Source: Chryseobacterium gleum (GTDB lineage Bacteria; Bacteroidota; Bacteroidia; Flavobacteriales_D; Sanyastnellaceae). From it: 36,322 bases of DNA. Position 1 is the first letter of the stretch. Every line of letters begins with the position of its first letter. The stretch spans positions 1 to 36,322 of the forward strand of contig CAMCHP010000027.1 of the NCBI GenBank assembly GCA_945874695.1, in the 5' to 3' direction. Shown here one piece after another: positions 13,659 through 27,082 of the stretch. The translations under genes and the position numbers were made by a program. A model generated the notes under the pieces. The model worked only from the letters and a program-made list of their open reading frames with translations, was not told where the DNA came from and ran no database searches.

Positions 13659-13692
13659 TTGATAAAGCGCATTTTCTTTTTTAGTATTTTTC
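13659..13692 (+). promoter_or_regulatory. Putative promoter of the ECF sigma gene
   Basis: TTG at 13659-13661 and TATTTTTC at 13685-13692 are separated by 23 bases, close to the TTTG/TAnnTTTG pattern. This reading makes TTG 13659 a promoter element, not a start codon, and favours GTG 13716 as the start of the sigma gene. Confidence 0.35.
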
Positions 13693-13715
13693 AGCCCATA
13701 TCCAATGCACTGAAC

Positions 13716-14249
13716 GTGATCTTCAGCCTTTCTGGTTCTAATAATACGTACGAAACCCTTACGCTTGAAGCGTACCGCGAAATCTTCAACGAGTTCTACG
13801 TTGCTGTGCGTAACTTTTTGTACTTCAAATGTTCAGATGCTGACCTCGCCGAAGATCTCGCGCAAGATACCTTTGTAAAGCTTTGGGAAAACAGAGAACG
13901 CATCGACCGCAAGACCGTAAAGGCTTACCTCTATACCATTGCTGGAAACCTCGCAATCAATTACCTGAAAAGGCAACAACTCCAGTATAAATTCATCAAC
14001 GCATCTTCCGATCGCGCGGAGCGCGACACCCCTGATTTTCTCATTGAAATGGATGAATTTCAAGCGAAACTCCAGAAAGTAATTGGTGAAATGCCCGATG
14101 GAAGCCGCGAAGTGTTCTTGATGAATCGCATTGAAGACCTCAAATACCGCGAAATTGCTGAACGTTTGAACATCAGCATTAAAGCAGTTGAGAAAAGAAT
14201 GAGCAAAGCGCTTCAAATTCTGCGAGAAAAGCTCAATATTGAGGTGTGA
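13716..14249 (+). CDS. ECF (FecI-like) RNA polymerase sigma factor
   Basis: A sigma-70 family extracytoplasmic-function factor. Region 2 includes YREIFNEFYVAVRNFLYFK, AEDLAQDTFVKLWENR and KAYLYTIAGNLAINYLKR. Region 4 is LMNRIEDLKYREIAERLNISIKAVEKRMSKAL split by its helix-turn-helix (REIAERLNISIKAVEKR). No ATG is available near the start. GTG 13716 gives 177 residues with region 2 near the N-terminus. TTG 13659 would add an odd hydrophobic stretch of 19 residues and overlap a promoter-like box. The stop overlaps the GTG start of the TonB-dependent receptor. Inferred: it responds to the receptor through the FecR homologue at 17726 and transcribes this locus. Confidence 0.9.
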   Translation: MIFSLSGSNNTYETLTLEAYREIFNEFYVAVRNFLYFKCSDADLAEDLAQDTFVKLWENRERIDRKTVKAYLYTIAGNLAINYLKRQQLQYKFINASSDRAERDTPDFLIEMDEFQAKLQKVIGEMPDGSREVFLMNRIEDLKYREIAERLNISIKAVEKRMSKALQILREKLNIEV

Positions 14250-16885
14250 TTCGCCGCATATTCATTAGCCTTATTTTCGTTTGTGCTGGATTTCTCAATG
14301 AAGTTTGCGCACAAGACAGCATTCCCTATGTGTCGTTCAGCGGCGAAGGCGAACGGCTCGACCGAGCATTGCTGGCCATTCGACGCGATTACGACATTAA
14401 AATTGCCTACGACAGTCGGGCGCTGCGCGCGTACAACGTGAGTGGCACTGGAGAACGCATCCTGCTCAGCGACATCCTGAAAATGTGGCTCCAAGAAACA
14501 GGATTCACCTACACTGTTGTCGATGACACCTATGTCATTGTTCGTGCCACGATCTCCAATCCGGGCGTTCAGCCCGAAACCTTTAACTACCCTTTGCACG
14601 GCCGCGTGGTTGACGAATTAGACGGCGAGCCCTTGCCCTTTGCCACCATCGTTACCCGCGGCTCAAACAAAGGAGCCGTCAGCAACGAACAAGGGTGGTT
14701 TACCCTGTACGGCGTGAACTCAGATACGGCAACCGTAACCATTTCATACCTGGGCTATCAATCGTTCAGTTTCCCGGTTCCACGTGATTACGCCGGTGAA
14801 ACAGTGGTTTTTCGTCTGCCCAAAGTAAGTGCAAACTTGCCCGTTGCCCTCATCACTACCGAGCGCCAAAAGCGGGTCATTGAGAGCCGTGTGCCTGCCT
14901 TGGTTAGCATTGATCCTGAGTTAGCATTTTATTTGCCCGGAACAGGTGAACCTGACCCTGTGCGCACGCTTCAACTCCTTGCGGGAGTCAGTGGTGCACT
15001 GGAAAGTAGCGCCAATATTCACATTCGCGGCGGTGCAGCCGATGAGAATTTGGTGGTGTATGACGGATTCACCATTTACTACCTCGATCACTTTTACGGA
15101 TTATTCTCAGCTTTCAATGCAAACGCCATCAAGAACATCCGTTTGCACAAGGGCGTTTTTGAACCCAAATTTGGAGGGCGCGCTTCGGCTGTGATCGAAA
15201 TCACTGGAAAACAAGGCAGCCAAGAACTCACCCGTGGAAAGCTCGATGTGAACATGCTCAGCACAGCCTTACACCTCGAAACGCCAATCATTGGCAACAA
15301 GGCATCGCTCATGCTTTCAGCCCGCCGCTCGTTTACAGATGTCATTTTTAGCCCCGTTTACCGAAGCCTGTTTACCAATTTATACGGCAACAGCACCAAC
15401 ACCACCGCGAGTGAATCGTTTTTCAGGTCAGGTAACACACCCGACTTCAATTTTTATGACTTCACGGCAAAGGTGGGATGGGAGTCGAAAGCCAACGACC
15501 GTTTTTCATTTACCATATACAACGGCCGCGATCGCTTGGCGATGCAATTCGCCGAACGAACGCGTGACGATCGATTCATGTTCGAATACAACGATCGCAG
15601 CCAATGGGGAAACACAGGCGTAGGTACCCGCTGGGCCAAACAATGGGATGCCACCCACGCGGGCAATTTAACAGTCGGATTTTCAACCTACCGCTCAGAG
15701 TTGTTTGGCTTTGACCGCCGCATGAACATCTTCTTAGGCACGCAAGACACCCTGTTCTTTGACCGCAATACAGAAATCAGCGACCTCTCCATTCGCTACG
15801 ATCATGAAATGAAATTGAACCAGCACACACTCGGTTTTGGCACGGCAAGCACTGCCATGCGCGTCGAAAACAGCCGCCTCGATAGCGATGGCAATTTTGC
15901 CGAGTCGGTCGCTGCTGAAAGTCTCCTCGCCTTGTACATTCAAGATGTGTACATGATGGGTGATGATTTAGCCCTAACGGGCGGATGGCGAACCTCGTTC
16001 TACACCGGACTTAACCGGTTGTACCACGAACCGCGCATTACAGCCGAATGGATGGTGCTTCCGAATTTGACGCTTCATGGTGGTGCAGGACGAAATTTCC
16101 AGTTCATCCGCAACTTGCGTCGGCAAGACCTCTTTTTGAATACGGCCGACGAGTGGCGCGTCGCCGATGGAGAAACGCTCCCCGTTTTGCGCGCAGATCA
16201 AGTAACTGCGGGGGCAACTTATCGCAGAAAACACATAAAACTCGACGCTGAAGTTTACCACAAATGGAGTCAAGGCACGGTCGAAGATGCCCTTCGGTTC
16301 ACGGCTTTCGATCAAGGAACATTTGAGAACGACTTACTCGTCGGTCGCGGCAGGGCGCGTGGACTTGAACTCATGGTCAGCAAACCTGAAGGATTGCATA
16401 CCGGATGGATCGCCTATACATGGGCTCGGGCTTTCAACAGCTTTGATGCACTCCCGAAGAAAGAGGTGCCGGCATATTTCGACCGCCGCCACGAGGCAAA
16501 ACTCGTTTACAGCTTTCGACCAGGGCGATTTAGCTTCAACGCGGTATTCGTTTACGCACAAGGCCTCCCTTACACGGCGGCCACGGGTGTCGTTGACGTC
16601 GATCTAATCAACGGAGGAACACGCCCACTCGTCGCTTTTTCTGAGCTGAACGGTGCCCGTTTGCCTGATTACCACCGCCTTGATCTCTCAGCAACCTATG
16701 CCTGCGATGCGCTCGGAGGTAAGTTGCTCATCGGTTTGTCGGTCTACAACGTGTACGACCGCATGAACATTCGCGACCGCTATTACTTCAGCTCAGGCAC
16801 GCAAGCCGATAACCTATTGGTCGATTTCAACGACTTGGTTTTTTTAGGCATGATTCCGTCACTTCAAATGAGCATCGAATGGTAA
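14246..16885 (+). CDS. TonB-dependent receptor with STN signalling domain
   Basis: An outer-membrane, TonB-driven transporter of 879 residues, starting at GTG 14246 within the sigma-factor stop. Order: signal peptide ending EVCAQ (about residue 23); STN domain (about 28-98) used for cell-surface signalling; a carboxypeptidase-regulatory beta domain (about 117-190, GRVVDELDGEPLPFATI); plug (about 215-320, NIHIRGGAADENLVVYDGF); then the beta-barrel. The C-terminus ends in aromatic-rich LQMSIEW, typical of barrels. Known: STN receptors pass ligand binding to a FecR anti-sigma and an ECF sigma, both present here. The substrate (siderophore, glycan, peptide or other) cannot be told; there is no SusD partner but a DUF4249 lipoprotein follows. 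Two copies of the palindromic repeat fall inside. Confidence 0.94.
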   Translation: MIRRIFISLIFVCAGFLNEVCAQDSIPYVSFSGEGERLDRALLAIRRDYDIKIAYDSRALRAYNVSGTGERILLSDILKMWLQETGFTYTVVDDTYVIVRATISNPGVQPETFNYPLHGRVVDELDGEPLPFATIVTRGSNKGAVSNEQGWFTLYGVNSDTATVTISYLGYQSFSFPVPRDYAGETVVFRLPKVSANLPVALITTERQKRVIESRVPALVSIDPELAFYLPGTGEPDPVRTLQLLAGVSGALESSANIHIRGGAADENLVVYDGFTIYYLDHFYGLFSAFNANAIKNIRLHKGVFEPKFGGRASAVIEITGKQGSQELTRGKLDVNMLSTALHLETPIIGNKASLMLSARRSFTDVIFSPVYRSLFTNLYGNSTNTTASESFFRSGNTPDFNFYDFTAKVGWESKANDRFSFTIYNGRDRLAMQFAERTRDDRFMFEYNDRSQWGNTGVGTRWAKQWDATHAGNLTVGFSTYRSELFGFDRRMNIFLGTQDTLFFDRNTEISDLSIRYDHEMKLNQHTLGFGTASTAMRVENSRLDSDGNFAESVAAESLLALYIQDVYMMGDDLALTGGWRTSFYTGLNRLYHEPRITAEWMVLPNLTLHGGAGRNFQFIRNLRRQDLFLNTADEWRVADGETLPVLRADQVTAGATYRRKHIKLDAEVYHKWSQGTVEDALRFTAFDQGTFENDLLVGRGRARGLELMVSKPEGLHTGWIAYTWARAFNSFDALPKKEVPAYFDRRHEAKLVYSFRPGRFSFNAVFVYAQGLPYTAATGVVDVDLINGGTRPLVAFSELNGARLPDYHRLDLSATYACDALGGKLLIGLSVYNVYDRMNIRDRYYFSSGTQADNLLVDFNDLVFLGMIPSLQMSIEW
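14558..14580 (+). repeat. Palindromic repeat, copy 5
   Basis: AATC, CGGGC, loop GTTCA, GCCCG, AAAC. Inside the TonB receptor, in the linker between the STN and carboxypeptidase-regulatory domains. Confidence 0.75.
15965..15987 (-). repeat. Palindromic repeat, copy 6
   Basis: Minus strand: CATC, CGCCC, loop GTTA, GGGCT, AAATC. The outermost pair is lost. Inside the barrel of the TonB receptor. Confidence 0.7.
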
Positions 16886-17634
16886 GAATTGCAACATTTA
16901 TTTGGCTGGTCGTTCTAGGGGTTTCGGCCTGTCGGCCGGATGAGCAGGTCGAATCCATTGCCATGCAAGGTATACTGATCGCGGGTGAATCACTCGCTGT
17001 TGAGGTTGAGCTGGTGCGCGATTTCGAGTCTATGCCGCTCAGCAATGCAACGGTAGTTTGTCATCTGCCGGATGGGGGCAAGGTAAACCTTCAACAAGAC
17101 CCGCTCAATGCTGCGCGCTGGTTCAGCGATGATATCACGGTGAATGCCAGTACACACTATGCCATTGAGGTGTTAACCGATGCGCTTCACGCGCGCGCTG
17201 AAACCACCGTACCCGCAGCGATTAACCTGGTTCAGGTGAGTGCAACTGTTATTCCAGTCAATGTAAATTCACTCGGACAGCCTATTTTCACCGTATTGTG
17301 GGCAACCGATGCAGGCATTTCGCATGTGTTAACCTTGGCCGAACCCACAACTGGCGAAACCATCCCCTTTGCTGTGCCTTCAGGGAATTTTGAAGCGCAG
17401 TATAGCTTGCCCGTACCCGGACAAGGAACTACCTTATTTGATACTGATTTTCAGTTTTATGGCGAACACACGCTCACCGTTTATGCCATCGACAGGGCCT
17501 ATGAGAATCTGTTTTTCTACCGTCCGGCTGAAGGTGGCAACCGCCTTACAACCGGTCCGTCAAATGTTGAAGGAGGAACCGGTTACCTCACCTCGGCCAC
17601 ACGAGTTGCCGTTGCGATTGAAATAGTTGAATAA
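16879..17634 (+). CDS. DUF4249-family lipoprotein
   Basis: A 251-residue lipoprotein with signal peptide MVRIATFIWLVVLGVSAC and the cysteine at residue 18. The body is beta-rich. The C-terminal GPSNVEGGTGYLTSATRV matches the end of DUF4249 proteins, where a similar segment near the C-terminus is the best conserved part. Known: DUF4249 genes regularly sit just after TonB-dependent receptors in Bacteroidetes and probably act as their surface partner, as SusD does for SusC. It overlaps the receptor by seven bases. The lipobox region codes through one copy of the palindromic repeat (16921-16942). Confidence 0.82.
   Translation: MVRIATFIWLVVLGVSACRPDEQVESIAMQGILIAGESLAVEVELVRDFESMPLSNATVVCHLPDGGKVNLQQDPLNAARWFSDDITVNASTHYAIEVLTDALHARAETTVPAAINLVQVSATVIPVNVNSLGQPIFTVLWATDAGISHVLTLAEPTTGETIPFAVPSGNFEAQYSLPVPGQGTTLFDTDFQFYGEHTLTVYAIDRAYENLFFYRPAEGGNRLTTGPSNVEGGTGYLTSATRVAVAIEIVE
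16921..16942 (-). repeat. Palindromic repeat, copy 7
   Basis: Minus strand: CATC, CGGCC, loop GACA, GGCCG, AAAC. In the lipobox region of the DUF4249 lipoprotein. Confidence 0.8.
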
Positions 17635-17641
17635 AGTTGAT

Positions 17642-17672
17642 TTTGAAGGTAGGGAAACACCGTTCACCTTTG
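17642..17672 (+). promoter_or_regulatory. Promoter of the fecR-like gene
   Basis: TTTG (17642-17645), a 19-base spacer, then CACCTTTG (17665-17672), which matches TAnnTTTG at seven of eight positions. The spacing is ideal for a Bacteroidetes housekeeping promoter. It gives the FecR homologue a separate transcript from the sigma/receptor genes. Confidence 0.65.
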
Positions 17673-17725
17673 TATAGATTATCGTTACCACACACATCGA
17701 AGGTTTGGAAGAGAAGAATAAAATC

Positions 17726-18541
17726 ATGTTTGAGCGCACGGTAGCCAATTGGGAAGTGCCTCAAGCATGTGCGAAAGAAGCGTCATGGGACAAGTTGCAA
17801 GCGCGACTTGAAGCGAGTTCGACCGTGAAGGTCGTTCCCTTGTATCGCAAAGCAAGCGTTTGGATTGCGGCAGCGTGCATTGCGGCCGTGCTATTTTTTG
17901 CGGCCTCGTTGATCGATGAAAAGCCGGTTGAGTTTGTAGCGAGTACTTACGAGCAGGTTATTTTACCTGACCGTTCAGTGGTTCATTTAACCCCGGGAAG
18001 CTCAATAGCCTATGCCTCGTCATGGGATCAGCGGGAAGTGATCTTGAAAGGAGAAGCGTTCTTCGAAGTAGCCAAAGGAGAAACCTTCACCGTGCACACA
18101 GCTGCGGGTGATGTTTCGGTTTTGGGTACCAGCTTTAACGTGTATGCCCAAAATGAAGGCTTTGCTGTAGAATGCATCACCGGAAAAGTGAATGTAGCTT
18201 CAGGAGATGTCGCACACGTGATCACAGCGGGGCAAGGCGTGAAAACACGCAGTGGGTCATTGAGTGTGCCTTATGAGCACGGATTAACAGCCCCCTCATG
18301 GCAGCCGGGCACTGAAGTGAATTACACAAATGCAGATATTTCACGTGTAATTGACCATGTCGTGCAACGTTATGGTGTATCTGTGCGTCTTGATGATAAC
18401 TTGCGTGAAAGTGGGAAAGAGTTCTCAGGTACTTTCACCGATTCTGGGGCGTTTGAAACGCTCACCCTGTTGGCATTGGTTCTTAACCTCGAATTGGAGC
18501 AGATCGACGAAAATTCGTTTGCGCTCTATATGTTAAATTGA
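17726..18541 (+). CDS. FecR-family anti-sigma factor
   Basis: An inner-membrane anti-sigma factor of 271 residues. A short cytoplasmic sigma-binding N-terminus (residues 1-44) precedes one membrane helix (45-63). The periplasmic FecR domain includes VILPDRSVVHLTPGSSIAY, VILKGEAFFEVAKGETFTV and VLGTSFNVYA. The C-terminal domain (about 200-271, DUF4974-like) resembles an STN domain, as in other Bacteroidetes FecR proteins. ATG 17726 is preferred; a TTG seven codons upstream is possible. Unusually, it lies after the receptor and lipoprotein instead of directly after the sigma gene, and has its own promoter. Confidence 0.92.
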   Translation: MFERTVANWEVPQACAKEASWDKLQARLEASSTVKVVPLYRKASVWIAAACIAAVLFFAASLIDEKPVEFVASTYEQVILPDRSVVHLTPGSSIAYASSWDQREVILKGEAFFEVAKGETFTVHTAAGDVSVLGTSFNVYAQNEGFAVECITGKVNVASGDVAHVITAGQGVKTRSGSLSVPYEHGLTAPSWQPGTEVNYTNADISRVIDHVVQRYGVSVRLDDNLRESGKEFSGTFTDSGAFETLTLLALVLNLELEQIDENSFALYMLN

Positions 18542-18604
18542 ACCAATCGTCGATTGAAAACAAAAAATAGGCTGAATTTGCTGATTTTTTGCGATCTTTG
18601 TAGG

Positions 18605-18706
18605 AAGTAAGAACTCGGTCAGTCTGACCGGGCTCATTAGTATAGTTAGTTTTAGTTAAGGTTTGGAGTCCCGCGAGATAACGATGTCGCGGGGCTCTTT
18701 GTTTCT
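18605..18706 (+). ncRNA. Candidate small RNA of about 100 nt, or long terminator leader
   Basis: The 200-base gap between the fecR-like gene and queA holds a promoter-like GATCTTTG (18593-18600, one mismatch to TAnnTTTG), then a hairpin CGGTC / GACCG with a five-base loop (18616-18630), an AU-rich single-stranded stretch with repeated TTAGT, and the strong terminator at 18666-18705. A -7 box, an internal hairpin and a terminal hairpin would suit an independent small RNA of about 100 nt. No clear -33 box is seen. The alternative is simply the 3' end of the fecR transcript. I cannot assign it to a known RNA family from memory. Confidence 0.35.
18666..18705 (+). terminator. Strong intrinsic terminator downstream of the fecR-like gene
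   Basis: An 11-bp stem (GAGTCCCGCGA with TCGCGGGGCTC, one G-T pair) with a ten-base loop is followed by TTTGTTT. It ends transcription of the uptake locus, or of the candidate small RNA, before queA. Confidence 0.85.
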
Positions 18707-18729
18707 GTCAATCCCATCTCGCATCTTCC

Positions 18730-18737
18730 TAAATTTG
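18730..18737 (+). promoter_or_regulatory. -7 box of queA, leaderless arrangement
   Basis: TAAATTTG is an exact TAnnTTTG match and is followed by CGCC and then ATG 18742. With a transcription start expected a few bases after the box, the queA mRNA would begin at or beside its start codon. Confidence 0.6.
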
Positions 18738-18741
18738 CGCC

Positions 18742-19923
18742 ATGCCGATGAACGACCACAGCCCCGAAGAGTTCGATTATGTTTTACCGAGTGCGGCAAT
18801 CGCCCTCCATCCGCTTGCACAACGCGATCAATCTAAACTGCTGCTCTACCGCAAAGGTGAAATAAGCGATCACCATTTTGCCGACTTGGCGCGCATCCTG
18901 CCGGCAGGCAGTCAACTCATTGTAAACAATACCAAGGTAATTCATGCGCGCATTGTGGGGCAAAAAGAGACCGGTGGACGAATTGAAATCTTCTTGCTTC
19001 GTCCGCATAACTTAAGCACTGAATCGGCCATGGTAGCTCGCGACGTCACTCAATGGTGGTGCCTCGTTGGCGGTGCAAAACGCTGGAAGGCAGGCGCAGT
19101 AAGTGTTGAAGGGGGGGGTGTGCAGCTCAGTGCAACGCGCGTTGAACGAAGCGACGATGAATTTTTGATCGAATTCAAATGGGATGGCGCAAAAACTACC
19201 TTCAACCAGGTGCTTGAACAGGTAGGCCGAATTCCTTTGCCGCCATACATCGCACGCGAAGCGATCGATGAAGACTTGTACCGCTACCAAACGGCATTTG
19301 CCGAGCGCGAAGGCAGTGTAGCCGCCCCAACAGCGGGCTTGCATTTCACGCCTGAACTGGTTGCCCAACTGCAAGTGAATCGTGTGAATTTGACCCTCCA
19401 TGTGAGCGCAGGCACCTTTAAGCCGATGTCCACTGAGCGCATCGCTGATCACCCCATGCACGAAGAATATTGTGAATGCACCTTGGAGGCCATTTCGGCG
19501 CTCACCCTTGCTGTTGATCGGTATGCGGTAGGAACTACGAGCCTTCGCACATTGGAGAGCCTGTATTGGCTCGCAGTGAAGTCGAAACTGCAGGGCACGA
19601 TTCCGCAGCATGTCGACCAACATGAGCCGTATCAACTTGCCACGCCTTTTGATTCATTCGAAGAGGCGATGCAGTTCTTGCATGCATGCATGGTTGCTGA
19701 GGGCTTGCAGCAGATCGCATTTACAACCTCGATTATGATCGCACCCGGTTACACCGTGCGTTCAATCAAAGGCTTGTTCACTAATTTCCACATGCCGAAG
19801 AGCACCTTGTTACTGCTTGTTTACGCCCTCATTGGTGACGATTGGCGAAGGGTTTATGATCACGCCCTAACGGGCGGATACCGCTTTTTGAGCTATGGGG
19901 ATGGATCGCTGCTGATTCCTTAA
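18742..19923 (+). CDS. queA: S-adenosylmethionine:tRNA ribosyltransferase-isomerase
   Basis: QueA transfers and rearranges the ribosyl part of S-adenosylmethionine onto 7-aminomethyl-7-deazaguanine in tRNA, giving epoxyqueuosine. Family blocks are visible: FDYVLPSAAIALHP, KLLLYRKGEISDHHFADL, LIVNNTKVIHARI, RIPLPPYI, YQTAFAEREGSVAAPTAGLHF, VSAGTFKP and FTNFHMPKSTLLLLVYALIG, ending YRFLSYGDGSLLIP. At 393 residues it is longer than the 350 or so of E. coli, as in other Bacteroidetes. The usual HA-x(4)-YRF segment near the C-terminus reads HALTGGYRF and is encoded by a copy of the palindromic repeat. Confidence 0.95.
   Translation: MPMNDHSPEEFDYVLPSAAIALHPLAQRDQSKLLLYRKGEISDHHFADLARILPAGSQLIVNNTKVIHARIVGQKETGGRIEIFLLRPHNLSTESAMVARDVTQWWCLVGGAKRWKAGAVSVEGGGVQLSATRVERSDDEFLIEFKWDGAKTTFNQVLEQVGRIPLPPYIAREAIDEDLYRYQTAFAEREGSVAAPTAGLHFTPELVAQLQVNRVNLTLHVSAGTFKPMSTERIADHPMHEEYCECTLEAISALTLAVDRYAVGTTSLRTLESLYWLAVKSKLQGTIPQHVDQHEPYQLATPFDSFEEAMQFLHACMVAEGLQQIAFTTSIMIAPGYTVRSIKGLFTNFHMPKSTLLLLVYALIGDDWRRVYDHALTGGYRFLSYGDGSLLIP
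19858..19880 (-). repeat. Palindromic repeat, copy 8
   Basis: Minus strand: TATC, CGCCC, loop GTTA, GGGCG, TGATC. The right flank is degenerate. Near the C-terminus of queA. Confidence 0.65.
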
Positions 19924-19941
19924 CTCAAGCTTACAACAAAG

Positions 19942-19976
19942 AAAAAGCCCTCCTCGTTAAAGGAAGGCTTTCGCTT
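19942..19976. terminator. Bidirectional terminator between queA and the PpiD-like gene
   Basis: Stem AAAGCC / GGCTTT extended inward by four more pairs after one mismatch, with a six-base loop. It has five A on one side and T-rich sequence on the other. It separates convergent genes ending at 19923 (+) and 19996 (-). Confidence 0.8.
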
Positions 19977-19995
19977 TATAAAGTATGTGATTCGA

Positions 19996-22083
19996 TCAGA
20001 AGCTCTGACGCTCGTCTTTCAATTTAGCACCATCTTTCATGGCGTTGAACATGCGGGTTGAGACCCCACCGCGCATGCGGCTTGTAACCTGATCTTGCTC
20101 GGTCAAATAGTTGTCTTTGTCGAGTGCGCGAATGATTTCTCCAGTGGGAGCAATCACCCAAACGCCGTGCTCTCCTTGCAACGGCAATGACATGCTGCCG
20201 CTTGGAATTGCGAATGCCAAGCCCGAAACTACAGGCTCTGCGCCAACACCTGAACCAGGAATTGTTCCGCTCTTCAAGGTGATATTCATGCCGGTTTTAA
20301 CTGTAGTTTGTGCAATCTCAGCCGCTTGAGCAAGGTTTTCAGCCTTTTTCAACTTGTCGATCATGTATTTGGCTTTGGCCTCTTTCAAAGCTTCTGCACG
20401 CATTTGCTCTTCTACGTTTTCAAATGAAGGGACACCTGCAATCATCACTTTCGTTACAACAGCAACTACATAATCTGTTCCCACAGTGAAAGGAGTTGAA
20501 ATCTCACCTTTCTCAGCTTTGAAAGCCCAGTTTACAACTTCAAAAGCATCACGCAAGCTACCCACGGTGCCGGTTCCTTTGCGAAGGTTTTTGGCTTCGG
20601 TTAAGGCATAGCCCATGGTATCTGCAGCGGTTTTGAATGACTCGTAGTCGCTGTAGTTCACCGCAAAGTCACGTGCTGTATTGTACGCTTCTTTTTGGGT
20701 TTCACTGGATGCTGCAATTTGGCGTGCAATCACAGCTAAATCAGCCTGCTTCACTGACCAACGTTGCTCAAGAACTTCGATCAAGTGAATGCCGTAGGTT
20801 GTTTCAACGATACCAATACTGCCTGGATTATTGTCGAAGCAGTAATCTTCAAAAGGCTTAACCATTTGACCGCGTGGGAAGAACTCATACACACCACCGG
20901 TGCTTTTTGAACCTGGATCATCGGTAAACTTCGTCACCAAATCTTCAAATTTCTCACCCGCACGCAAACGCTTACGCAAGCTGTCAGCACGCGCTGTCAA
21001 CTCGGTTACCTCACTGCTGTTGTCTTTGTTTTTGAATGATAGAAGAATGTGGCGGCACTTCACGGTGCTATCAGGAACATTGGTGAATCCAACAGGCTTC
21101 ACGATGAGAACTACACCATTGTCTTCGTATGGACCAACAACTGTTCCTGGCTCCACATTAAAGATTTGTCGATCATTGTCGCTAACCGCTTCAGTTTCGC
21201 GCAACTGTTGTGACATGTAAGTTGGGTTACCGCTTTTTTCGATAACGAAAGCCGTATCGTTTGTTAGGGTCTTCCATTCGTCAGCAATTTCTTGCATTGA
21301 AGCTTGCAATGCGTCAATATCAGCTTGTGAAGGCTCAATGCTAAAGCTGAGGTATTCTACGTCACGCCCATCGAGTTGCTTCAACGAAGCGTCATTCTTA
21401 CGGCGATTGTACATGGCACGCACATCGCTCTCAGATACAGTTACGAGGCTGTCTCCGATTTGCTCGTACGGCACAAGGACGTATTCAATATTCGCTTTTT
21501 CCTCGCCACGCACGTATTCGTACTTGGCTTCAAGCCCGTTTGCATATAATCCTTTTGAAATAAGCATGTCGTACTTCTCGCGAAGACGCTTCTGTACGAT
21601 TACTTCAACGTAGCCTTGGTAGTTTGCCAAACCAGGGCCAGTTTTGTCGTTGAACATGCCTGCAAAGGTCTGCTTCCAGTTCTCGCGCGTCTCTGCAGTG
21701 GCCTGACCACCATAGAATGTACGTAAAACGTAAGGCGAGATGTGCTCTCCGAAACGAATTTCGTCGAATTCATCTTGCACAACTTCAAGTCCGAGCGCAC
21801 GGTATTCTTCTTGAAGGAGAATACCTTCGATGATATCGTTCCATACTTCCGATTCCAACGCTTGGTTGTTCGTGTAGTTGAACAATGAGCGACGCTTTTG
21901 TAGAGCATTTTGGTACTCTATTGCGCTGATGCTTGTGCCATCAATGCTTCCAACTGGGCGGTTTTGTCCTGATCCGAATAACGACATTACTGCATCGTAA
22001 GGGATGAGGAATCCGACCATACCTAGACCAATCATAATCATCAAAAGACCTTGACGATTCCGAATTTTTTCAATCAATGCCAT
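19996..22083 (-). CDS. PpiD-like membrane-anchored peptidyl-prolyl isomerase
   Basis: A 695-residue periplasmic foldase anchored by one N-terminal helix (about residues 11-33, after MALIEKIRNR). A SurA/PpiD N-terminal chaperone region follows. The parvulin domain (about 345-440) has VKCRHILLSF, GSKSTGGVYEFFPRGQMV, FEDYCFDNNPGS and VETTYGIHLIEVLE. A second, poorly conserved half follows, as in PpiD. Role: helps outer-membrane and secreted proteins fold after Sec export. It is the last gene of the long minus-strand array but has its own promoter. Confidence 0.93.
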   Translation of the reverse strand: MALIEKIRNRQGLLMIMIGLGMVGFLIPYDAVMSLFGSGQNRPVGSIDGTSISAIEYQNALQKRRSLFNYTNNQALESEVWNDIIEGILLQEEYRALGLEVVQDEFDEIRFGEHISPYVLRTFYGGQATAETRENWKQTFAGMFNDKTGPGLANYQGYVEVIVQKRLREKYDMLISKGLYANGLEAKYEYVRGEEKANIEYVLVPYEQIGDSLVTVSESDVRAMYNRRKNDASLKQLDGRDVEYLSFSIEPSQADIDALQASMQEIADEWKTLTNDTAFVIEKSGNPTYMSQQLRETEAVSDNDRQIFNVEPGTVVGPYEDNGVVLIVKPVGFTNVPDSTVKCRHILLSFKNKDNSSEVTELTARADSLRKRLRAGEKFEDLVTKFTDDPGSKSTGGVYEFFPRGQMVKPFEDYCFDNNPGSIGIVETTYGIHLIEVLEQRWSVKQADLAVIARQIAASSETQKEAYNTARDFAVNYSDYESFKTAADTMGYALTEAKNLRKGTGTVGSLRDAFEVVNWAFKAEKGEISTPFTVGTDYVVAVVTKVMIAGVPSFENVEEQMRAEALKEAKAKYMIDKLKKAENLAQAAEIAQTTVKTGMNITLKSGTIPGSGVGAEPVVSGLAFAIPSGSMSLPLQGEHGVWVIAPTGEIIRALDKDNYLTEQDQVTSRMRGGVSTRMFNAMKDGAKLKDERQSF

Positions 22084-23736: not shown

Positions 23737-24304
23737 CGGTATCGCTTGAATTTTCAGGGTCTTCAATGAAAAGGGTTCCTGAGACTTGTTTTATTTGACG
23801 TTTTTTGAATCGACTGTCGCTTACCAATCCTTTCCCGTAAATGGTTCCGCTTTCTGAGGTGATAATCACGTGTTTGTTGGTATATACGAGGTCGCTGTCT
23901 TGTACAAAATAGAGTTCTTCGGTATTGAGTTTACTACCTTCGTTATTCACCAGTTCTACCTCTTCACGGGCGACCAATCGTCCGTCGCTTTCCCAGAATG
24001 TGCCGGTACGCGCGCTTAAAACAGCTTCAATACCGCCTATGCTATCGAACACCGTAAGTGTAAATCCGTCAAAAACCTCAATTCGCGGATTTTCGCCTTC
24101 GAATCGGTCGAGTAACTTGGCTTCAAGTTTGTTGCGCAAATGTCCCTCTTCTGTGAAATAATAAGTACCGTTTTCAACAGTTTGAACGGCGATGTCACGT
24201 TCATCAATCAAGGCATTGATTTCCTTAATATCATTTCCGCATGAAAAAAAGATTCCGCTGACCAAGGCCAGCGGAATCATAGCGTTCAGCGTTCGAGCCG
24301 CCAT
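23714..24304 (-). CDS. lptC: LptC-like LPS-export lipoprotein
   Basis: A 196-residue protein with the beta-jellyroll strands of LptC (TYYFTEEGHLRNKLEAKL, ENPRIEVFDGFTLTVFD and SGTIYGKGLVSDSRF). Known: LptC links the LptBFG transporter to LptA in the lipopolysaccharide bridge; Bacteroidetes versions are often lipoproteins. Here the signal peptide ends in IFFSC. The start overlaps the upstream TPR gene's stop by one base (TAATG). A second ATG at 24280 would also give a signal peptide. A canonical intrinsic terminator (stem plus seven T) lies within codons 9-21, which is very unusual. Confidence 0.82.
   Translation of the reverse strand: MAARTLNAMIPLALVSGIFFSCGNDIKEINALIDERDIAVQTVENGTYYFTEEGHLRNKLEAKLLDRFEGENPRIEVFDGFTLTVFDSIGGIEAVLSARTGTFWESDGRLVAREEVELVNNEGSKLNTEELYFVQDSDLVYTNKHVIITSESGTIYGKGLVSDSRFKKRQIKQVSGTLFIEDPENSSDTDEPRTTN
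24244..24278 (-). terminator. Intrinsic terminator inside the start of lptC
   Basis: Minus strand: GATTCCGCTG, an eight-base loop, CAGCGGAATC, then seven T. The 10-bp stem is perfect. It lies 26-60 bases after the lptC start codon, in the sequence encoding the signal peptide. By shape it is a textbook rho-independent terminator and may end or attenuate transcription coming from the upstream TPR gene. Confidence 0.65.
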
Positions 24305-25662
24305 TAGCGAGTGCGAATGGTTGTTGCTTCACCTACACATGGTACGGTGAATGAGTCGCCTTCTTTTTTCGCAACGTTGAAAATATCTTCTTTTGAAGGG
24401 AACTGCGCTTTTGCAGTTGCCATCTTGCGTGAAGCGGCGTCACTCACACTCGGGTCAACTGATTTAGCGCGTGCATAATAGTCGTATGCCAACCAGTAAA
24501 CTGAGCGCGCACCCAAGGCACCGTCGTCACAAGCTCCAGAAAGAGCCATGATTGCGTCACCTTCCAAGATGATGGCCATACCATCTCTCGGATTCAAGGC
24601 CAGTGCCTTTTTGGCGTAGCTGCGTGCTTTTGAGCTTTGCCCCAGTGCTGATGCCACTTGACCTGCACGGAGGTAGTAGGTCGCGCGATCGCTGCCATCG
24701 GTTGCACCGTTCGCTGCTTCTTCTAGGTACTTCAAGGCGCCGCTGTAGTCGTCTTTCTTCAGCAAGCCCATACCGATTGCATAGGCAGAGGTAGGTTCAG
24801 GTGCAATGTCATAAACAGCTTTGGCTATTTTAATGTAGAAGTCGCTGCTTGAGCAGTCCTTCTTATTCATCAAACGAAGCACTTTTTTCTTCAATTCATC
24901 GTCGGCCGGGTTCTCGCTAATCTTTTGCTCGAGGACAGGCAACATTTGCTCACAGTCAGCGATTTGAACAAAGATTTCATCGAGGTTGTTGCGTGTTTTT
25001 TGGTAGGCCTCAATGATGCCTTCATCGGTGGCATTGATCAAATTAGCGTCGATGTAATCTTGCAGCAAAAGGTACTCAGTAAGCAAGTCACTGTGGTATG
25101 CTTTCTTTGCGTCGCCTTCAGCAGCTTTGAACACTTCAAACAAACTCAAGTAGTAACCACTGATGGTGCTTGCAGGGCTTGCAGTGGTAAGGCAATACAA
25201 TGATTCTTTGTACATGTTGTAAGCACCTTCAAGGTCTTTCTTGAAGTAACGTGCGTAATCAGACGCTTTATAACCCAAAATGCCACAGCGGTTGAGCGGT
25301 TCTTTATCGGTTGCCGCGAAAATTTCCATCCGCTGGTCGTAAACAAGCATCAAAGAGTCACGCAAGACTTTTTTACGATCAGTGCTCTCCGTGAGGTTGT
25401 ACATTTCTTTAATGAAGCGCACACCGTCAATGTAAAGTCCTTCGTTCACATCCGGCGGGCATACCGCGCAAGCCTTCTGCCAAACAAGGTAAGCGTCGGC
25501 ATAGTTTTTTTGCGTTTTGAAGCTTTTGTAAACGCTCAACGCCTCCATGCAGGCTACTTGCTGTTCTTCAGTAGCACCGTATTTTGATTGGTCTTGTGCT
25601 GTTGCCGCTCCTGCGATCATCAAACCCAAGGCTACAGCTTTAATTCGTGCAAATTGCTTCAT
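24304..25662 (-). CDS. Exported TPR-repeat protein
   Basis: A protein of 452 residues with a Sec signal peptide (MKQFARIKAVALGLMIAG, cleavage after ATA or TAQ), followed by helical repeats. Recognisable TPR units are DYSGALKYLEEAANGA and YLRAGQVASALGQSSKARSY, followed by AKKALALNPRDGMAIILEGD. Inferred: a periplasmic scaffold protein. I do not recognise a specific family name, but a TPR gene in this position next to lptC and an outer-membrane protein gene seems common in Flavobacteriales. The frame begins at 25710, but ATG 25662 starts directly at the signal peptide and leaves a 16-base gap to the upstream gene. Confidence 0.85.
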   Translation of the reverse strand: MKQFARIKAVALGLMIAGAATAQDQSKYGATEEQQVACMEALSVYKSFKTQKNYADAYLVWQKACAVCPPDVNEGLYIDGVRFIKEMYNLTESTDRKKVLRDSLMLVYDQRMEIFAATDKEPLNRCGILGYKASDYARYFKKDLEGAYNMYKESLYCLTTASPASTISGYYLSLFEVFKAAEGDAKKAYHSDLLTEYLLLQDYIDANLINATDEGIIEAYQKTRNNLDEIFVQIADCEQMLPVLEQKISENPADDELKKKVLRLMNKKDCSSSDFYIKIAKAVYDIAPEPTSAYAIGMGLLKKDDYSGALKYLEEAANGATDGSDRATYYLRAGQVASALGQSSKARSYAKKALALNPRDGMAIILEGDAIMALSGACDDGALGARSVYWLAYDYYARAKSVDPSVSDAASRKMATAKAQFPSKEDIFNVAKKEGDSFTVPCVGEATTIRTR

Positions 25663-25678
25663 GGTATTGTGTGTTGTA

Positions 25679-27082
25679 TTAATCATATTTTCGTTGAACA
25701 AACCAGGCATTTTTGAAGAAAGGAGACAGTGTAAATCCGATCACGGCGTTCACATAGTTCTCTTCGATCATGTTGCCTGCATTCTTACCTCTGTTGCCAA
25801 ATTCCATGCCAAAGTGAATTTTACTTGCTGAGCGCGAGCTCACAATCGGGAAAGAGATGCCCGCGGTGAACGCCTGGTCGAGAACTTGTTCCCCATCTAC
25901 AGCGAGGTAAGTTGCACTGTTTCTGTAACCTAAGCGATATTGAGCGCGATCGAGTAAGTTTTTTCCCTCTTCAACAGAACGTGGTGTGAATTGTACGCCA
26001 ACACCGAGGGTTGTGGTGTTTAATAAGCCGGGATTAAGCTCTGCATCGTTGACCTGAGTTCTGAAATTGCTCCATTCGCGCATTTCGATGTCGGCCGCTA
26101 CCAAAATATGTCGGCCGCCTTTGAAGTGATAGTGAAGGGCTATGCCCCCGCGCAAGCGTGAGGGCAAGCTGCTCGTGCCATCGCCAACCAGTGAAAAAGA
26201 GGTGTCAATCGGGAAAACTGCGCCTTGCTGAAATATGACTGATTCACTGAACTGTTCGATGGTGGTATTCATTTCCAGGGCTGGCGTATACACTGCTCCA
26301 ACTTGGAGCAAGAGGCGCTCGGTCATTTTTCGGTCGCGGCCGTAACGCGCTTTCAGTAACGTTTCATAATGCACACCGAAATCGGCGCCAAAATCAAAGA
26401 GTCTGAAGTTGTTGGTCGCACGTGTGCCTAAGTAGGTCGTGTTTTGAATATTTACTAAACGTGACTGTACGACGTTTCCGAAGTAATAGTTTGCATTTAA
26501 CCCTGCACTGAACGTGTGTTTCTTGACTTTGACACTGTCAGTTACGAGGCCGTCCTTATCTGTAAATCGTTGCCATTTGGTCACGTCGAATTTTCGTCCG
26601 AAACCAATGAATGCCTTGTTGATGCCTCCGCGACCCTCATAGATGTATTGCACCTGACCCACACCCTCGATACTTTGCGTAGTGCTGATCGCATAGCCTG
26701 TGGTGCTAATGGGACTGATGCCGAAGATATACCCGGTTGGTGATCCGGGGCGTTTAAAGGCCATTTGAAATTGATCAAGATTGCCGGTGTTTTGTCGGCT
26801 TGAACGATCGCCTTCGTTGATTCTTAAAAAGTGGGTTCGGATGGATGTTTGGAAGGTGGTGTTGAAGAGGTTCCCCACGGTTGCCGGATTCTCGGCATTG
26901 AGCATGTAGGTATCGTTATATGTCGACGACACACCACCCAATCCAAGGGTTCCTACGTTGCCCCCGTTGTAGAGGTCTCCGATTCCGAAGCGCGAATAGG
27001 GCGACAGGTTATTGAATTGCGCAGATGCTCCGAAGCTGAGGCCCACACAGGTGTAAATCAGAACGGCAATTTTAGAGCGCAT
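25679..27082 (-). CDS. Outer-membrane beta-barrel protein, Bacteroidetes-specific
   Basis: A protein of 467 residues with signal peptide MRSKIAVLIYTCVGLSFG and cleavage near ASAQ. The first mature residues, FNNLSPYSRFGIGDLYNG, and the many alternating hydrophobic/glycine strands are typical of FadL/OMPP1-like barrels in Bacteroidetes (for example GYIFGISPISTTGYAIS). The C-terminal part GISFPIVSSRSASKIHFGME is barrel-like. Substrate unknown. ATG 27082 is chosen as the best signal peptide start; ATG 27100 is possible. It overlaps coaX by 11 bases. Confidence 0.82.
   Translation of the reverse strand: MRSKIAVLIYTCVGLSFGASAQFNNLSPYSRFGIGDLYNGGNVGTLGLGGVSSTYNDTYMLNAENPATVGNLFNTTFQTSIRTHFLRINEGDRSSRQNTGNLDQFQMAFKRPGSPTGYIFGISPISTTGYAISTTQSIEGVGQVQYIYEGRGGINKAFIGFGRKFDVTKWQRFTDKDGLVTDSVKVKKHTFSAGLNANYYFGNVVQSRLVNIQNTTYLGTRATNNFRLFDFGADFGVHYETLLKARYGRDRKMTERLLLQVGAVYTPALEMNTTIEQFSESVIFQQGAVFPIDTSFSLVGDGTSSLPSRLRGGIALHYHFKGGRHILVAADIEMREWSNFRTQVNDAELNPGLLNTTTLGVGVQFTPRSVEEGKNLLDRAQYRLGYRNSATYLAVDGEQVLDQAFTAGISFPIVSSRSASKIHFGMEFGNRGKNAGNMIEENYVNAVIGFTLSPFFKNAWFVQRKYD

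Follow-up and report, generated by a model that had tools for sequence, protein, structure and literature searches.

FecR-type ECF sigma systems are common in Bacteroidota and are usually pictured as activators of one uptake operon. For the enterobacteria, RybB, MicA and MicL are described as RpoE-dependent small RNAs (PMC8103513), and MicL as a product of a gene's 3' end, transcribed from a promoter within that gene (PMC8103513, PMC9438474). The FopS RNAs of Bacteroides are presented as multicopy RNAs that carry a conserved single-stranded segment and repress outer-membrane transporters, and RbpB of B. thetaiotaomicron is described as binding FopS at that segment (PMC11697453); RbpB reportedly binds GUAGGAUA (as told in PMC12119571). 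For another RNA of B. thetaiotaomicron, BTnc353, an ECF/anti-sigma pair has been proposed as the target (PMC10861873). From Flavobacterium psychrophilum comes Rfp11, a putative regulatory RNA that stands in what appears to be the list of an ECF-type motif, SM6, together with T9SS genes and an ECF/anti-sigma pair; the same source describes Flavo-1, an unexplained RNA motif widespread in Flavobacteriaceae (PMC9723704).

The open literature that we searched yielded no description of an RNA between fecR and queA, and no paper in which queA, FecR and a small RNA occur together. Here we analyse a stretch of 36,322 nucleotides (the window), in which positions 18605-18706 are, with a probability that we put at roughly 0.7, a small regulatory RNA that belongs to the signalling system of ECF sigma factor, TonB receptor and FecR whose genes lie immediately upstream (13659-18541). 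The likeness to the sigma E small RNAs is one of role, namely small RNAs under an envelope-sensing ECF sigma factor, and we claim no relation in sequence; unlike them, the RNA described here has a FecR-type anti-sigma gene as its neighbour, shares a 3' module with its paralogs, and comes from hosts in which no Hfq or ProQ was found. FopS differs in pairing through its 5' end and in its canonical sigma-ABfr promoters, as described for that family (PMC11697453), and in BTnc353 control would run in the reverse direction, from small RNA to ECF/anti-sigma pair. Rfp11 may be a precedent for the circuit proposed below, a likeness drawn from its description only; the motif reported for SM6 has a CGT box in the -10 region, whereas the corresponding sequence here is TGTAT.

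The RNA between fecR and queA

The gene order is ECF sigma factor, TonB receptor, DUF4249-like gene, FecR, RNA and queA, with the following features:

13659..14249, + strand: ECF sigma factor gene with Sigma70_r2 and r4_2 domains, head of the gene group
14246..16885, + strand: TonB-dependent receptor-like gene with CarboxypepD_reg and Plug domains
16879..17634, + strand: DUF4249-like gene, under the Pfam cut-off in the window and above it in locus L082
17648..17675, + strand: ECF-type promoter GGTAGGGAAACACCGTTCACCTTTGTAT before fecR, score 17.9, the best in the window
17705..18541, + strand: fecR-like anti-sigma gene (PF04773 FecR, E 3.8e-16)
18593..18600, + strand: -7-like box GATCTTTG, with no sign of use
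18605..18706, + strand: small RNA as folded, with a putative 5' end
18614..18632, + strand: 5' hairpin P1 of 8 pairs with loop GTC, from the fold
18639..18663, + strand: single-stranded linker AGTATAGTTAGTTTTAGTTAAGGTT, 25 nt, conserved
18665..18698, + strand: GC-rich terminator hairpin with AACG loop at 18680-18683 and a broken U-tract to 18704
18742..19923, + strand: queA (PF02547, E 4.2e-93), conserved downstream neighbour of the RNA

The sigma factor gene matches TIGR02985 (Sig70_bacteroi1) at 142.5 bits (cut-off 126.4), and the receptor-like gene has a FecR_C-like N-terminus that stays under the Pfam cut-off in the window. The fecR-like open reading frame begins with TTG, an in-frame ATG following at 17726.

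The segment 18605-18706 folds at -37.5 kcal/mol, compared with -24.6 +/- 3.1 in shuffles (z -4.2), and none of 200 shuffles folds as well. Its architecture is that of hairpin P1, whose CGGTC/GACCG part occupies 18616-18630 of the stem, followed by an AU-rich single strand (about 18635-18664) and the AACG-looped terminator. An earlier note on this DNA had listed a -7-like box, a CGGTC/GACCG hairpin, an AU-rich stretch and a GC-rich terminator, all of which are found as it described them. The terminator stem contains a G-G mismatch, and a simple terminator scan returned no terminator here. Since all three forward frames of the linker contain stop codons, coding on that strand is excluded. The RNA lies on the same strand as fecR, from about 63 nt past the fecR stop codon, and ends in a terminator; this is the position of a 3'-UTR-derived small RNA, that is, behind a coding gene, on the same strand and ending at a terminator.

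The -7-like box had been put forward as an independent start for a candidate small RNA. The pattern [TG]ANNTTTG has 45 sites in the window, both strands together, so that the box is an ordinary sequence and no evidence of a promoter; the scan of 17500-20000 returned no sigma-70-type promoter pair, with 1.9 expected by chance, and no ECF-type promoter lies directly upstream of the RNA in the window (best score 0.0). Promoter scan and box frequency thus lend no support to a sigma-70 promoter or a -7 box as the RNA's own start. What stands of the candidate is a conserved structured RNA, with linker, terminator, hairpin and their order kept in relatives; what finds no support is its start at the box. 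Nor do the data bear out that the first hairpin resembles a palindromic repeat: P1 is the sole perfect case of CGGTCN5GACCG in the window, three cases with up to one mismatch compare with 0.76 expected (3 of 100 shuffles reach three), and a similarity search of the own genome returned no second copy of P1.

Among described RNA families, no Rfam model matched at gathering anywhere in the window, and at E up to 10 only BTnc049 and SNORA42 appeared within 18300-18900. Flavo-1, which the note had raised as a possible identity, is thus absent even from the weak matches, and it and the other Rfam families were set aside for lack of a match at threshold; the RNA is not Flavo-1.

Conservation of place, linker and terminator

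When the 107-nt element was searched as DNA against 60 relatives, the best matches outside the own genome covered its middle 26-34 nt (94-100% identity) and lay in other genera of the same family. The exact linker 23-mer was found in 26 stretches from 26 records with different accession prefixes in a one-genome-per-species collection, all of them MAGs labelled Flavobacteriales or, by title, Cryomorphaceae, Crocinitomicaceae or Chryseobacterium; together with the window, these records form a set of 27 loci. The upstream open reading frame is a FecR protein (PF04773) in 23 of the 25 loci where one could be scanned, and matches FecR_C in 21 of 25. On the same strand downstream, QueA follows in 25 of 26 loci, the window included, L096 having no open reading frame to scan. 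Genes farther upstream were examined in three loci (L088, L081 and L082), each with a homolog of the window's receptor gene: L088 and L081 also have the sigma factor and receptor genes in the same order as the window, their proteins at the DUF4249 position being without a Pfam match, and in L082 the upstream genes are receptor, DUF4249 and FecR.

Nineteen copies were aligned, leaving out the partial copy L002, the near-copy L009 of L007, and duplicates of the window. The linker appears as 25 consecutive invariant columns, an upper estimate of its conservation because the loci were found through it. The terminator has 10 consensus pairs, nine of which have changed on both sides, so that the covariation which the earlier note proposed to seek in homologous gaps is present. 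Upstream of the linker, a hairpin of at least six Watson-Crick pairs occurs in 18 of the 27 copies compared with 4.9% of shuffled segments, and one of at least five pairs in 25 of 27, with 20 different stems among those 25; L077 and L085 score zero under the rules of this search, and separate folding shows a stem in both. RNAalifold recovered the terminator only and missed P1 in the 19-copy alignment, because the variable P1 region aligns poorly.

The motif AACG, which played no part in finding the loci, occurs 8-30 nt past the linker in all 27 copies, and the folds place it at the tip of the terminator. Ordinary terminators have this loop in 7 of 165 cases (1.597 Mb of stretches not chosen for the RNA), and one of those seven bears the linker end and is itself a paralog. 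Within the fetched loci, AACG is present in 7 of 48 terminators without a linker end upstream, some of these being paralogs that the rule missed, and in 35 of 36 terminators with GTTAAGG or GTTTAGG upstream, a set partly chosen by model. The linker end GTTAAGG followed by an AACG-capped terminator defines the family, and covers the window copy, the 26 named records and the paralogs. We note that AACG is also found in the loop region of the terminator of a minus-strand gene downstream in the window (19943-19972, minus strand), which has no linker end upstream.

Read at the sequence level, these comparisons support a conserved structured RNA rather than merely the 3' end of a message. The position, fold and sequence of the RNA are retained in many genera of one uncultured Flavobacteriales family.

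ECF-type promoters and a paralogous RNA family

Across the 463 kb of loci that were fetched, every occurrence of the pattern GGTAGGG-N16-GTAT stands, as judged by position, ahead of fecR, of the fecR-linked RNA or of an RNA paralog. As a regular expression it barred A at the eighth base and so missed the window's fecR site (17648-17675); a weight matrix built from 22 sites at these loci, the window site not among them, recovered it. At a pass score of at least 14, 21 of the 22 loci in which the fecR start is visible have a matrix site ahead of that gene, and the remaining one scores 13.9. Because the matrix sites come from these same loci, the independent test lies in the 13 fecR regions that were not used for it, 12 of which score at least 14. 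The upstream regions of other open reading frames gave 0 of 91, and 1.597 Mb of sequence selected independently of the promoter gave a background of 7 matches.

Before the RNA, sites scoring at least 14 are found in 9 of 27 loci. Seven of these nine fed the matrix and lie 52-58 nt ahead of the linker core; the two independent ones (L080 and L092) lie 123 nt from it, at the end of fecR. The other 18 loci score below 14, two of them at 11.5. Since the window RNA is itself without an ECF-type promoter, an origin from the fecR 3' UTR is likelier for it than a promoter of its own.

Some sites scoring at least 14 belong to neither fecR nor the RNA. Among the best three per strand listed, these lie in L071, L081, L190, L204 and at 25186 in the window, and L075 has a further one of uncertain assignment. 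The window site (25186-25213, plus strand, score 15.5) is inside and antisense to a gene at 24304-25710 and is probably due to chance. A strong ECF-type promoter (score 21.2) at L207 (genome G012, about 507 kb, minus strand) precedes an open reading frame that looks secreted by eye and would be, on this sequence context, a candidate for a further regulon member.

A covariance model (R1) was built from the 19 copies, window copy included, and the match in the window (18595-18713, 68.6 bits) is accordingly to one of its own training sequences. The model matches 90 of 114 family genomes at E <= 0.01; strong copies (E < 1e-12) are found in 28 genomes of 13 genera, and weaker paralogs raise many family genomes to 2-11 matches. 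Across 299 genomes of the order there are 118 with a match, the 90 within the family and 28 outside it; the latter are weak, 21 of them fall in one other family, and two were inspected. One element outside the family (L069, genome G251, 1432-1550 on the minus strand) has a TAGTAGTAGTTTAGTTTTAGG stretch and a terminator directly behind a gene that resembles clpB by eye, and is possibly a distant relative or a convergent 3' end.

The paralogs that we read share the linker end (GTTAAGG or near) and the AACG terminator, and differ in their 5' parts. Some stand in tandem, with three copies in L062 (G031), three in L057 (G012) and four in L063 (G024), and one copy in each of these arrays has an ECF-type promoter. 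So does an unlinked paralog in the own genome (L053, G000 contig 43), with a score of 28.3; all four of these promoters fed the matrix. Paralogs L058, L064, L068 and L054 are preceded instead by TGGCA[CT]-N5-TTG[CTG][AT], which we take to be a sigma54-type promoter; L054 is from the own genome, and L058 and L064 are from one genus. This pattern has four more matches without an RNA module in the 463 kb, three of them of identical sequence. The two kinds of upstream site suggest that members of one RNA family may answer to different sigma factors.

Two further places in the own genome touch on this family. A partial near-copy of the linker (L056, G000 contig 68, 10060-10090, minus strand; 91% over about 32 nt), in which the AACG terminator is missing, would be a decayed copy or a sponge. 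At L187 (G000 contig 16, minus strand, near an ABC transporter gene), TTTGGTTAAGG precedes a strong terminator with AATG in place of AACG in the loop region; this is likely another own-genome paralog.

Mode of action and rival readings

Structure, conservation, synteny, promoter association and paralog family can all be read from the sequence; for transcription by this sigma factor, processing, action in trans on envelope genes and the sign of regulation, we infer the following scheme. The outer-membrane receptor and FecR would release the ECF sigma factor, and RNA polymerase would then use GGTAGGG-N16-GTAT promoters, which would place under its control fecR nearly everywhere, the RNA in a third of loci and some unlinked paralogs. 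The window copy probably arises as the tail of the fecR transcript, with its 3' end at the AACG-capped terminator and perhaps a processing site 5' of hairpin P1. The RNA would probably act in trans, its linker either pairing with mRNAs or being held by a protein, and the outcome would be reduced production of envelope proteins, comparable to what RybB, MicA and MicL achieve for E. coli sigma E.

Pairing of the linker with gene starts was examined in several ways, with genes taken by a simple ATG-to-stop rule in the duplex tests. At -20 kcal/mol, 570 genes gave 5 duplexes compared with 1.0 in shuffles, and none of 40 shuffles was as high; a replicate with 556 genes gave 2 compared with 0.8, with 18 of 100 as high. 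At the five remaining thresholds, the observed counts were matched by 5-12 of 40 shuffles in the first set and by 10-100 of 100 in the replicate. There was no excess at TonB-receptor start regions (11 of 19 Plug loci, mean z 0.02), nor at ABC start regions (14 of 30 loci, mean z 0.29, two of the regions being the same place); loci without a placeable start had been dropped from both sets, and some retained starts looked unreliable. The window's own 28 gene starts were scanned with the linker, as a scan without control. The proposal that the linker is antisense to TTAACTAAAACTAACTATG in start regions was rejected, since 25 genomes searched with three mismatches gave 23 matches compared with 89 for the reversed pattern, and 9 of the 23 are the complement of the RNA gene itself. 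Two of these matches, at the starts of secreted-looking proteins in genome G015, are anecdotes.

That no pairing excess is established would fit an RNA that is mainly a protein ligand, in which the UAG/AAGG-rich linker and AACG terminator bind, titrate or guide a protein such as an RRM-1 protein, and the linker is no pairing seed. We consider this somewhat unlikely. It would account for a linker end and terminator common to paralogs whose 5' parts differ, and the inventory of RNA-binding proteins points the same way: none of 40 related genomes has an Hfq match and none of 25 a ProQ match (both at E 0.001, with positive controls run), yet an RRM-1 protein is present in 22 of the 40, among them 20 of the 25 family genomes, of which the own genome is one. 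A parallel is offered by RbpB, for the FopS segment that it binds has in its printed consensus TTAAGGTT and ATAGTAT, words that are also in the window linker (PMC11697453), to which may be added the report on GUAGGAUA cited above. Against this, the likeness is of a kind that shuffling also produces, the alignment of the FopS segment R1' with the window linker (score 22) being reached by 286-314 of 5000 shuffles (about 6%). Furthermore, four carriers of the RNA (G001, G006, G015 and G017) have no RRM_1 protein at E 1e-5; as these are draft genomes, the absence argues against RRM-1 as an obligatory partner, a role that we rejected for it, and an RRM-1 protein may still be the partner.

The same short words, together with BTnc049, also raise the question of whether the RNA is a diverged relative of BTnc049 or FopS within one family spanning the phylum Bacteroidota, which on balance we find doubtful. 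BTnc049 (RF04179) is the nearest Rfam family, with 15 bits in the window and 28.7-33.4 bits in 5 of 14 related loci searched, all far under its gathering score of 81.9. Its weak matches fall in the same place, and it has the same order of 5' hairpin, UAG-rich linker and terminator; its consensus also has AACG near the terminator tip, but in the 3' arm, whereas in the window RNA it is in the loop. For FopS (RF04319), R1' aligned with paralog L053 is equalled by only 126 and 82 of 5000 shuffles (about 2%), but the score for the window linker given above is not significant, and for the family consensus 383 and 343 of 5000 shuffles are as good (7-8%). The FopS model scores 60.9-77.5 bits at three true FopS loci, two of which the GibS model (RF04182) also matches, so the search works; it has no match in the window region or in the searched loci of the window-RNA family. 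FopS segments were recovered from 5 of 395 genomes of other Bacteroidota. In the FopS loci that we read the conserved segment stands directly before the terminator, and none of 32 FopS copies has AACG behind it. On the shuffles, the Rfam search and these 32 copies, homology to FopS was rejected.

Finally, the element might work solely in cis, as a conserved terminator that also stabilises the 3' end of the fecR message and insulates queA, without any RNA that acts in trans. This would suit its place behind fecR, the lack of a separate promoter in the window and the fact that the clearest covariation is in the terminator, but is distinctly unlikely, as a terminator needs no conserved 25-nt linker, conserved AACG loop or second hairpin, a promoter precedes the RNA in nine loci, and paralogs elsewhere in the genomes have ECF-like or sigma54-like promoters of their own.

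We return, then, to a small regulatory RNA of the ECF/TonB-receptor/FecR system. Kept between an anti-sigma gene and queA, such an RNA would give a FecR-type ECF system a post-transcriptional arm, and, in bacteria whose genomes yielded neither Hfq nor ProQ, it would indicate a conserved 3' RNA module. More tentatively still, and with the odds leaning against it, there may be a Flavobacteriales RNA regulon in which the ECF sigma/TonB-receptor/FecR system and, separately, sigma54 drive one paralogous small RNA family, whose variable 5' parts would choose targets while the conserved 3' module docks on an RNA-binding protein. If true, this regulon would correspond in Bacteroidota to the sigma E-RybB/MicA arm and to the Hfq-binding 3' module, without Hfq or ProQ. 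With the promoter motif and the covariance model, the post-transcriptional arm and the 3' module can both be tested in any carrier that is in culture.
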